Positions 30,337-35,840 of a DNA stretch of 35,840 bases are shown here, one piece after another. Both the position numbers and the translations under genes were made by a program. Below the pieces are notes generated by a model. The model saw only the letters and a program-made list of their open reading frames with translations. It did not search any database and was not told the origin of the DNA. The stretch is from assembly GCA_947073645.1 (NCBI GenBank), contig CAMTMK010000018.1, forward strand, positions 1 to 35,840, read 5' to 3'. Positions within the stretch are counted from its first letter, which is position 1, and every line of letters starts with the position of its first letter. The DNA comes from an uncultured bacterium. Its GTDB lineage: Bacteria; Cyanobacteriota; Vampirovibrionia; Gastranaerophilales; Gastranaerophilaceae.

Positions 30337-30680
30337 TAACAAAAGGAATTAGAGGTGCAATTACTGTTGAAAATAATTCGGTAGAAGCTTTAAGAGAAGC
30401 TGCTCTTGAGCTGTTAAAGGAAATTATTACTAAAAATAATATTGCACAAGATAAAATTTCGCATGTTATTTTTACAACTACAAGTGATTTGAATGCAGAG
30501 TTTCCTGCGAAGTTTGCACGTCTTGAACTCGGCTGGGATAGTGTTGCTATGATGTGTTTTCATGAGCTTGATGTGCCAAATTCTCTTGCCATGTGTTTAA
30601 GAGTGCTCATTGTTGCTAACTGCGAAAATGATTTTATTCCGCAGTTTGTGTATTTAAAAGGTGCATCTAAATTAAGATAG
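30333..30680 (+). CDS. aroH: chorismate mutase, AroH type
   Basis: The 115-residue protein is the trimeric AroH class: KGIRGAITVENNS at the N-terminus (active-site Arg), AMMCFHELDVPNSLAMCLRVLI containing the Glu and Arg ligands, and IPQFVYLKGA. It converts chorismate to prephenate for Phe and Tyr synthesis. It starts inside the end of fmt (ATGA) with no clear ribosome binding site, so it depends on coupling. It overlaps the convergent gene at 30672 by 9 bases. Confidence 0.94.
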   Translation: MITKGIRGAITVENNSVEALREAALELLKEIITKNNIAQDKISHVIFTTTSDLNAEFPAKFARLELGWDSVAMMCFHELDVPNSLAMCLRVLIVANCENDFIPQFVYLKGASKLR

Positions 30681-32621
30681 TCTTGTAATTTCTGTCATTG
30701 CAGGGTCTAAAAGTCTTCTGCCAATGTTCGGAAAATCAATTGAACATAGCATTTTGTTGCCATATTTAATCATTTTTTCAACAACACCTTCACCGTATTT
30801 AGCGGTAGAAACTCTGTCACCGGGTTCAAAAGACTGAACATCCCCTTCTAAGTCTTCTTCTGCCGGATAAATTGGAACTACAGGCGGTAATTCTTCTTCA
30901 TAATCCACAAATTCAGGCATTTCTTCTTCGCCTACAAGTGATATTTCATCAGTAACAGCCAAATCATCAATTAAATTAAGATCATCTTCTGTTAAATCGT
31001 CTTGTGTTTCAAATTCATCATCTTCAGTTGGAAGTTTTTCGTAAAAAACTTTATCCACATCTTTTGCAACTTGCTCTACCAGTTCGTCATTTGAAAGTTC
31101 TTGCGGTAATTCATCTTCAATAAATTCATCTTGATAATATTCTTCACTTGCTAGTTGTGGAGCTTCTTCAAGCGGTTCGTATATTACATTATCGTCAAGA
31201 ATATTATCTACAGGCTGAATTTCGTCATACATAGAAACTTTATCTTGTTCAAATGATATTGGTTCTTCCTCAATAATCGGTTCTTCGATAAATTCTTCTT
31301 TTTCTTCTATTTCTGGATAATTTATTTCAGGAAATTCTTGTTGAATATCTTCTGCTGCATCTTCTTTTTCATTTTTTTCTTCCACTTTAACTGTAGTTTC
31401 CGGCATTGGAACAATTTCCGGTTCTTCAACTTCTTCTACAGGTGTCATTTCTGTAATAAGCGGAATGTTTTGTGTGTGTGCACCGTAGATTATGAATTCA
31501 TCACTGTTAAGTTTTCCCAAGAACGAATTATAGCTTGCGAAATCATGTTGTAATGTTAACGGCGCAAAGAAAATAATATTTTGAGATGCTTCTTTGATTT
31601 CTTCAATATATTTAAACTCATGCGGGCAGATAACTGTTGTAAATATGTTATCTCTTGCAATATATCTTTTTAGAAGTTTTTTGCTTATGTTTGCGTTGTT
31701 CACTTTTACAAAGCAATAAATTTGTTCGTTTATTCCATTTAAAATTGAATAGATATATCTGATAACTTCTTTTTGAAGGGTTTCAGGGATTTCTGACAAA
31801 TCAATACTGATATTTTTAGCGTTTTCTATAGCTATACTCAAATCTAAAATATCTTTTAGAGTATCTGCGAATATATTTAATTCTTTATATTTAAGCAATT
31901 TATTTTTTAGTAAGATTAATTGCGGAATTTGAGTTTCTCTATACTGGCTGTCAATTACGCTGATAAATGAGTCGAACGGTAAAAATCTTTCGGGGAGTGT
32001 TTGAATATATTCTTGAACTTCAATAAAAATATCTTGAATCATTGCTTTGCTTACAGCATCAACATCTTCAAGGTCATTTTCATAAATAAAGTTAATGGTG
32101 TCAAAATTTAGCGGAAGTTTAAAATCTTTTCCGATAGAAATTGCTCTATCCCATTCAAATTGTCCTTCTGTATCGATTATGATTGCTTTTTCTTTAATCT
32201 GTTCTATAATGTTGCTTAAAAGTGTAGTTGTGTTGCTAAGGTTATTTGAGCAGATTAAAAGGTTATTTTCCAAAATTGTTTTATCAACGTTAAGATTAAC
32301 ATCTTGTTGAGCAAGACTGCCTAAAATAAGCGGGTCTTCCGCAGGTATTATGTCAAGAAGTTCGCTTGAGGGAAGCTTTGAAACATTGGCTTTTAGGGAA
32401 GGTATTGTGCCGTTATAATTTTTCAAAATACCCTCATCATTGAAAGTGAATAGTAATTTAACTATAGCATAGTTAGATGCGGGTTCTGATTTTAGGTTCA
32501 TAACCTGTGCAACGTATGGATTGTTTGAGTCTTCGATGATTACAAATCCGCCCAATGCAAGATTATCAGCTACGTCAAACGCTACTTTAACTAAATTGTT
32601 CTTAATTTCCAAAACCTTCAT
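30672..32621 (-). CDS. degenerate HerA-like ATPase with acidic linker and PcrA-type Tudor domain
   Basis: The 649-residue protein shows: a HAS-barrel-like N-domain (~1-90, GGFVIIEDSNNPYVAQV); a RecA/HerA-like core (~115-390) in which the Walker A position reads CSNNLSNTTTLL, lacking the GKS, followed by IIIDTEGQFEW, then KNISIDLSEIP and a late IIFFAPL; an acidic, Pro-rich disordered linker (~393-597); and a C-terminal 52-residue domain FEPGDRVSTAKYGEGVVE like the Tudor domain at the end of PcrA/UvrD, which binds RNA polymerase. ATP hydrolysis looks lost. The role may be scaffolding on DNA or RNA polymerase. TGAGGG precedes the ATG. The HerA-type assignment is by pattern only. Confidence 0.7.
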   Translation of the reverse strand: MKVLEIKNNLVKVAFDVADNLALGGFVIIEDSNNPYVAQVMNLKSEPASNYAIVKLLFTFNDEGILKNYNGTIPSLKANVSKLPSSELLDIIPAEDPLILGSLAQQDVNLNVDKTILENNLLICSNNLSNTTTLLSNIIEQIKEKAIIIDTEGQFEWDRAISIGKDFKLPLNFDTINFIYENDLEDVDAVSKAMIQDIFIEVQEYIQTLPERFLPFDSFISVIDSQYRETQIPQLILLKNKLLKYKELNIFADTLKDILDLSIAIENAKNISIDLSEIPETLQKEVIRYIYSILNGINEQIYCFVKVNNANISKKLLKRYIARDNIFTTVICPHEFKYIEEIKEASQNIIFFAPLTLQHDFASYNSFLGKLNSDEFIIYGAHTQNIPLITEMTPVEEVEEPEIVPMPETTVKVEEKNEKEDAAEDIQQEFPEINYPEIEEKEEFIEEPIIEEEPISFEQDKVSMYDEIQPVDNILDDNVIYEPLEEAPQLASEEYYQDEFIEDELPQELSNDELVEQVAKDVDKVFYEKLPTEDDEFETQDDLTEDDLNLIDDLAVTDEISLVGEEEMPEFVDYEEELPPVVPIYPAEEDLEGDVQSFEPGDRVSTAKYGEGVVEKMIKYGNKMLCSIDFPNIGRRLLDPAMTEITRLS

Positions 32622-34043: not shown

Positions 34044-34188
34044 TTAGATTTATTACTCTCTCGTGTCTGATGTATATATAAAGTATATATAAACTTCTCG
34101 ATTTCAGTTTTGTATTATCTTGTTACATATCTTTACAAATAATCAATTATTGCAGAAAAAATGTTTTTATATCTATATAGGGGAAACT

Positions 34189-35840
34189 ATGCTCGACAAT
34201 AATGTCCAAAAACAGCAGCAAGCTCAAATGCAGTTTCAGTCTTTAACTCCACAGCAGCAGGAACAGTTAAGGCAGCAGATTACTATGCAGGCGGGTGTTA
34301 ATCCTGAACTTTTAAGGGAAAATGTTCAGGATACTTATGTTGCCAATAGGGTTGCAAATACTACAGATGACCCTAAAGGGATGATGTGGACTGCCGGTTT
34401 GACATTACCTGCGTGGTATGCGATTGCCAAAGGTATGGATAAATATGCTGAAAAATGTCGAGGTGATTATGAAAAAACAATCCCCGGCAAGATTGGCGCT
34501 TGGGGGGACAGAGTCTCTGACAGGCTTGGTAAAAACAGCTTTATGCAATCAATGGGCAAAGGTTATCGTTCTTGCAGAAAATTTATAAGAGAAAAAATTG
34601 TAGATAAATCAAGAATTTTACGCGCTTTCTGTGATACTCCTTCAAAACCTGAACTTTCAATGGTTCGAGATCAGGCAAGGGGTATGCTCGGTTTCTGCGC
34701 AACTGATTGGGATCAGGTTGTTGAAAACTTTATAAGAGAAACTCATCAGATCGACGATTTGGCAGCTTATGGAGCAAATGCATCTGAAATTAAAGCTTAT
34801 AAATCAAGAATTGGTAAAGTGCCAAAAGCACAGCAAGCTGCAGAATTACAAAAAGCTGAATTTGAACTTCTTAAAAAATATACAAGAGGTGGAAATACAT
34901 TCTTAGCAGGAGCGCTTCCGACTGATGCTGCTGCAAGAGCAAAATTATTAAAAGATGCTAAAGCTTATGAGTTCGGCTTGAAGGATTTTGCAGAATTTGA
35001 GCTTATTAAAAAGAACAGACCTGATTATTTGCACAGAATTATGGAATCTGGTCATAATGCAAACCGAAATATGTTCTCAATAGCTTATGAAGCTAAACCT
35101 ACTTTATGGGGTAGAGTTAAACGCTTTTTATTTGGAAGGAAAGTTTACGGCTCTGAATTTGCCAACAAAATGGCAAGTTCAATAGGTAATGAAACTTTAA
35201 CTCCCGAAATGGCTAAAGCTTTAAGAGATACAGGTTTGGATAAGAAAATCCCGAAATCTGCATTAGGTAAATTTATTGCAAAATACAATAATATTGTACT
35301 TGAAGGTGCAACAAACAGAGTTGCGGGCGGTAAGTTAATCGCTATTATGCAGGCATGGTTCCTGGCTGAAGCTATTTACAAATCAGCTAAAGCAGAAGGC
35401 GGTGCAGGTGAAAAAGCTAGAACATTTGCAGAACGCTTTACTGAACTTGTTGCAATGTTTGCTTGTATTCCACCTGCAATTATGTTGATGCACAAAGTCG
35501 GCGGTCTTCAGTATGCCGGCATGACAAAACAAGAAGTAGAAGCTTATAGAAAAAATCTTAAAGCCTTCAACGAAAAAGCAATGGCAGGTAAAATGTCAAA
35601 AGCTGAATATAAAGCCGGTAAGAAAGCATTAAGAACAGAATTAAAAGCCGGAGTTAAAAATCCGTTCACAAACTTGTGCAAACGTGTTGGCCGTGTTGTA
35701 TCAGTTGGACTTGAACAAATAAGACCTTATCAGTCAAAAGCTTCAACAAGAAAAACTGTTATGGAAAAAATAAAAGATATGTTCAAGAGCCCCGGACATT
35801 TTAAATTCGGCTTTAAACAAATGGCTGGTTATCCGATGAG
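34189..35840 (+). CDS. large hypothetical protein, 3' truncated by window edge
   Basis: The frame is open from the ATG at 34189 to the end of the window: at least 550 residues and no stop. GGGGA precedes the ATG by 4-5 nt. The first ~45 residues are very Gln-rich (NVQKQQQAQMQFQ, PQQQEQLRQQ). Two likely membrane segments are seen, near residues 65-85 (GMMWTAGLTLPAWYAIA) and 420-445 (LVAMFACIPPAIMLMHKVGG); between them lies a Lys/Ala-rich helical region. No signal peptide and no known family. It may be a membrane-bound structural protein. Confidence 0.8.
   Translation, partial: MLDNNVQKQQQAQMQFQSLTPQQQEQLRQQITMQAGVNPELLRENVQDTYVANRVANTTDDPKGMMWTAGLTLPAWYAIAKGMDKYAEKCRGDYEKTIPGKIGAWGDRVSDRLGKNSFMQSMGKGYRSCRKFIREKIVDKSRILRAFCDTPSKPELSMVRDQARGMLGFCATDWDQVVENFIRETHQIDDLAAYGANASEIKAYKSRIGKVPKAQQAAELQKAEFELLKKYTRGGNTFLAGALPTDAAARAKLLKDAKAYEFGLKDFAEFELIKKNRPDYLHRIMESGHNANRNMFSIAYEAKPTLWGRVKRFLFGRKVYGSEFANKMASSIGNETLTPEMAKALRDTGLDKKIPKSALGKFIAKYNNIVLEGATNRVAGGKLIAIMQAWFLAEAIYKSAKAEGGAGEKARTFAERFTELVAMFACIPPAIMLMHKVGGLQYAGMTKQEVEAYRKNLKAFNEKAMAGKMSKAEYKAGKKALRTELKAGVKNPFTNLCKRVGRVVSVGLEQIRPYQSKASTRKTVMEKIKDMFKSPGHFKFGFKQMAGYPM

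Follow-up and report, generated by a model that had tools for sequence, protein, structure and literature searches.

The 649-residue protein encoded on the minus strand at 32621..30672 (ORF call) belongs to an uncharacterised, class-level pseudo-ATPase branch of the HerA superfamily that carries a PcrA-type Tudor domain, as searched within the phylum. In this branch, a DNA-motor fold has been kept under strong selection after the loss of its ATP site and is linked to a helicase docking domain. The structural part of this reading is firm, while the steps that lead from it to a function are ones that we infer. The window, that is the whole stretch of DNA analysed, is an entire contig of 35,840 bases from a 1.71-Mb genome of the Gastranaerophilales ("Melainabacteria"). 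A ribosome-binding-site-like sequence, GTGAGGG, lies upstream of the start of the gene, and the plus-strand reading of 30672..32621 contains stops throughout. The gene occupies the coordinates given in the initial annotation, which named no strand.

The initial annotation had proposed that a HAS barrel precedes a RecA-like HerA core without the P-loop GKS, that the strands following the P-loop are still in place, and that an acidic linker of 205 residues leads to a Tudor-like end akin to that of PcrA/UvrD. This architecture was borne out in each of its parts, with the linker now placed at 202 residues. The features are as follows.

30672..32621, minus strand: whole gene, encoding HAS barrel, P-loop-less HerA core, acidic linker and Tudor (ORF, matches of the relatives, dN/dS)
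32370..32621, minus strand: HAS barrel, residues 1-84 (AF2 strands at 2-83; full-length HerA alignments start at residue 1)
31437..32369, minus strand: HerA RecA-like core, residues 85-395, pI about 4.5 (fold match to 4d2i_B, DUF87 in orthologues, 4d2i profile)
About residues 173-267, minus strand: inserted helical bundle within the HerA core
32223..32252, minus strand: site of the lost Walker A, residues 124-133, reading CSNNLSNTTT (aligned by profile with HerA ATGSGKS)
32172..32174, minus strand: D150 at the end of strand beta2 (invariant in alignments A1, A3 and A4)
30831..31436, minus strand: disordered acidic linker, residues 396-597 (pLDDT, composition, homologues)
31041..31091, minus strand: predicted short helix in the linker, residues 511-527 (low-confidence AF2; genus-conserved VEQVAKDVDK)
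30867..30878, minus strand: short motif [VI]P[IV]Y immediately preceding the Tudor, residues 582-585 (72 of the 88 homologues)
30675..30830, minus strand: PcrA/UvrD-type Tudor, residues 598-649 (PDB profiles, PF21196 in orthologues, five AF2 strands)

The HerA fold and its lost ATP site

Pfam and NCBIfam scans with the single query returned nothing beyond a sub-threshold Tudor match, and we therefore turned to relatives and profiles. AF2 modelled residues 1-390 and 600-649 with a mean pLDDT near 88, and residues 398-594 mostly below 50. When residues 1-398 were compared with known structures (Foldseek, VIA-align), they matched full-length HerA including its HAS barrel (4d2i_B; Z 26.7, 378 residues aligned, rmsd 4.0), and a sister-order orthologue, modelled by AF2 from a mostly different alignment, again matched HerA (8xav_A; Z 19.6, 362 residues). 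The fold predicted for residues 1-390 is thus RecA-like and preceded by a barrel. A profile built from 28 sequences matched archaeal HerA 4d2i (E 3.1e-6) together with the UvrD/PcrA Tudors in the PDB, and Pfam DUF87, the central domain of HerA, scored above cut-off in same-order orthologues (for example, 40.8 bits and E 2.9e-10 in genome G049). Profile-profile comparison with the P-loop DUF87 proteins of the class gave a moderate probability of 60%, and in it the P-loop and the D-x-x-G motif lined up as expected.

Since the HAS barrel, the RecA-like core, and the inserted helical bundle are all present, the protein belongs by descent and fold to the HerA superfamily, and it has these elements in the same order as the HerA translocases (4d2i; NurA-HerA, SIR2-HerA, and HerA-DUF4297). 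It differs from HerA in that Walker A is missing from all relatives examined and the Walker B acids are not conserved by eye, that the core is acidic, and that an acidic arm of 147-1,677 residues and a Tudor have been added. With the PADLOC models of known anti-phage HerA systems, the window protein gave no match, and one of 20 members matched weakly (E 0.0087).

The loss of the P-loop was seen both in the HerA profile alignment and in the homologues. The HerA sequence ATGSGKSN aligned to the degenerate consensus vsdklsqknn, where the query reads CSNNLSNTTT (HMM), and GxxxxGK[ST] was found in the first 450 residues of none of the 88 distinct full-length homologues. HerA of D. radiodurans has D487/E488 as its Walker B pair, and a further catalytic acid, D220, at the end of beta2 (excerpt of PMC9960219). 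Among these catalytic acids, only D220 has an invariant counterpart in the family, namely D150, which we take as its equivalent from its position, and throughout the class the D-x-x-G motif of beta2 (D150, G153) is retained. The strand at which Walker B is expected reads YCFVKVNNAN in the query, with no conserved acid pair seen by eye around the approximate column that the alignment gives.

Against three relatives, the dN/dS of the core was 0.030, 0.043, and 0.056, while the values were 0.01-0.08 for the Tudor and 0.17-0.42 for the linker, and the core values are approximate because dS is high. Since the core is under strong purifying selection, the gene encodes a maintained pseudo-ATPase and is not decaying. 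The best reading of the sequence is that the fusion protein is a pseudo-ATPase of the HerA superfamily that is probably catalytically dead, and it provides a concrete, testable case of such a protein in this superfamily. A weak match of 458 aa in genome G059 was rejected as a family member; it has a P-loop, GPPGVGKT, and appears to be an ATPase without relation to the family.

The Tudor domain and its candidate docking loops

A profile of the Tudor only (residues 598-649) matched the PDB entries 7egs, 9dqs, 6yi2, and 5dma with E values from 4.5e-9 to 4e-5. PF21196 (PcrA_UvrD_tudor) scored above cut-off at the C-termini of many orthologues and matched 17 of 20 class members at E <= 0.01, while the query alone matched it over residues 601-637 below the cut-off (16.2 vs 23.9 bits). 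Together with the AF2 strands, these matches assign the C-terminal domain to the PcrA/UvrD Tudor family. Besides family membership, it shares with the PcrA/UvrD Tudors (5dma, 7egs, 6yi2) a disordered linker before the domain and, in the alignment register presumed below, the aromatic, basic, and Leu docking positions, whereas the module that it is attached to is a dead HerA and not an SF1 helicase. In Mfd RID, CarD, and RapA, a small Tudor likewise links a larger module to RNA polymerase (excerpt of PMC5397179), and in BrxHII a Tudor is fused to a helicase (excerpt of PMC12839542); unlike in all of these, the larger module of the fusion is a P-loop-less HerA core. The Tudors of PcrA and Mfd are described as having no apparent sequence homology to each other (excerpt of PMC5397179).

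To bind RNA polymerase, G. stearothermophilus PcrA requires each of H681, W684, K712, and L714 (same excerpt of PMC5397179). At three of these four docking positions, the query has the same residue or a conservative replacement. In the alignment register that we presume from shared flanking residues and from the PcrA sequence, the equivalents are T606 (His in most relatives and Thr in the genus of the window), Y609, R635 (Lys in the sister orders), and L637, and throughout the class the aromatic, the basic, and the Leu position are maintained. The same genome encodes a separate PcrA (848 aa) with a Tudor of its own, in which the W684 position is Leu, so that the Tudor of the fusion seems no less suited to docking.

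The PcrA Tudor targets a [VIL]-D-x-x-T-G-E loop that occurs in RpoB and UvrB (excerpt of PMC8318588). The UvrB of the host contains RIDNVTGEII, which agrees fully with the motif as published, and the UvrB proteins of three relatives contain IDHVTGEVL, VDPETGEVL or LDATTGEIL. In RpoB, the sequence LVNRD[T/S]GEIKEQE was present in six of the six genomes checked, near residue 120, a position that lies within the beta1 region rather than SI1. The host RpoB stretch, LVNRDSGEIKEQEV, is similar to the motif, with N..[T/S]GE in place of a strict D..TGE.

Because the docking positions are mostly kept, TGE loops occur in UvrB and RpoB, and the PcrA of the same genome has Leu in its own Tudor, we favor a dead HerA scaffold, tethered by its Tudor to RNA polymerase and/or UvrB, over a motor, and we hold this proposal with about even confidence. 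The Tudor would bind RNA polymerase beta and/or UvrB at their TGE loops, the loop type used by PcrA/UvrD, and docking would hold the dead HerA platform, perhaps still a ring, near the transcription or nucleotide-excision-repair machinery. So tethered, the platform could recruit partners, or it could compete with PcrA for the docking site, and the acidic arm would act as a flexible, DNA-repelling tether. The link to transcription made in the initial annotation is plausible on these grounds, but UvrB would serve equally well as a target. Should the predicted docking prove right, the protein would be an added player in transcription-repair coupling in these non-photosynthetic relatives of cyanobacteria. 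A more specific version, which we offer only tentatively, is a lineage-wide, housekeeping-like pseudo-HerA ring that is permanently Tudor-tethered to RNA polymerase or UvrB, where it competes with or complements PcrA; such a ring would be a new kind of transcription-associated scaffold derived from a dead DNA motor.

An alternative is that the Tudor has been repurposed to bind another partner, or DNA/RNA, and that the scaffold has no relation to transcription and serves, for example, in nucleoid organisation or cell division. The Tudor of E. coli UvrD also binds DNA non-specifically (excerpt of PMC7585439), the beta2-beta3 stretch of the fusion (e.g. KMIKYGNKMLCSI) differs from that of PcrA Tudors, and the change of the H681 equivalent to Thr in this genus would fit such a shift. 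The class-wide conservation of the other docking positions argues against it, and we consider this alternative unlikely.

In a Tudor tree, 25 of the 26 fusion Tudors grouped together (SH-aLRT 86), separate from the PcrA Tudors found within this class, with one long branch placed elsewhere; the tree, built on only 51 columns, weakly suggests one ancient fusion. In PcrA itself, Leu was found in this genus and a family relative in place of the aromatic residue that contacts RNA polymerase, and the PcrA Tudors there have KAMDA where other families of the class have KKLLDP or KRLLDP.

The acidic linker and the role of the dead core

Residues 396-597 are predicted to be disordered and contain 76 D/E vs 8 K/R. 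The linkers of the 88 homologues range from 147 to 1677 residues, with medians of 33% D/E and 3% K/R. At one sister-order locus (L108, genome G110), the fusion frame is 2158 aa long, and about 1,700 residues of linker precede the Tudor. The pI is 4.1 for the whole protein and 4.6 for the core, which argues against the core as a surface that grips DNA. Since the core is acidic and no partner gene is conserved alongside across families, the earlier suggestion that the protein joins a translocase complex to transcription found no support.

The composition of the linker had also led to the suggestion of a DNA mimic. On this view, the linker or the whole protein would imitate DNA and sequester DNA binders such as RNA polymerase or UvrB, with the Tudor providing specificity. 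The low pI of the whole protein, the excess of D/E in the linker, and the acidic median among the homologues are in keeping with such a mimic. Among DNA mimics that are understood, the charge pattern is usually a folded one, whereas here the arm is predicted to be disordered, and it varies freely in sequence and length, with a dN/dS that is higher than that of the folded domains. An inhibitor would also be ill-suited to constitutive presence across the order. Given this disorder and the free variation in length, we disfavor mimicry, which we rate as improbable; a linker of this kind seems more in line with a charged, flexible tether than with a mimic of defined shape.

As for the core, it could be a regulatory subunit that mixes with an active FtsK/HerA-like ATPase in one ring, and the retention of the full protomer fold, with the beta2 Asp and its neighboring elements conserved, would suit this role. 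No other DUF87 protein was detected in the same genome (E <= 0.001), and thus no close active HerA partner was found there, which makes a mixed ring a doubtful explanation. That the protein is a cryptic ATPase with a non-canonical nucleotide site is most improbable, since the class-wide D-x-x-G motif that speaks for it is set against the lack of the Walker A lysine/serine in all 88 homologues and of conserved Walker B acids, judged by eye, at the expected strand.

Distribution and gene neighborhood

In the first search, all 58 of the related genomes gave a match. In G057, which is from another family of the class, the match was to the Tudor only, in a 905-aa frame of PcrA/UvrD-like size, and the whole protein was therefore counted in 57 of 58. 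In the class search, a member of the same family as the window (G137) gave a weak match only, and so we describe the presence as very broad rather than absolute. The fusion is near-universal among the genomes of the order that were searched, and three additional groups of the class at family level (f9, f14, and f15) have the same architecture. In the remaining families of the sample (f8, f10-f13) and in the sampled Cyanobacteriia, there was either no match or one confined to the Tudor, in a frame about as long as PcrA/UvrD. With a match in 58 of 58 genomes and a core dN/dS of 0.03-0.06, the pattern is not due to chance. No model spanning the whole protein was present in the family libraries searched, and a HerA-Tudor fusion is not described in the titles and abstracts returned for HerA with Tudor, HerA with Melainabacteria, and degenerate HerA.

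The neighbors of the gene in the window, which we take from recognition of their sequences to be purD, dnaJ, queE, def, fmt, aroH, yqeK, and nadD, are presumably housekeeping genes, and Pfam supports the DnaJ, the chorismate mutase, and the HD protein among them. The order purD-dnaJ-queE-def-fmt-aroH / fusion gene-yqeK-nadD is kept within the genus only. In other families of the order and in the sister orders, the neighbors differ, and no partner gene is conserved beside the fusion gene across families. We therefore dropped the gene neighborhood as a clue to function, its conservation being confined to the genus.

At eight loci of relatives within the order, a small protein of about 130-150 aa without a Pfam match is encoded directly upstream on the same strand, and it may be a partner of the fusion protein in those families. 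Nine sister-order loci have a conserved placement of their own that is unlike that of the window. The flanking genes there are, as we presume from their sequences, one for a divergent RarA-like AAA ATPase (nine loci) and one resembling isoleucyl-tRNA synthetase (eight loci). In the window, 34120-35838 holds the start of a large ORF without a Pfam match that runs off the end of the contig, and this ORF keeps its place as a neighbor at most of the loci examined within the genus.
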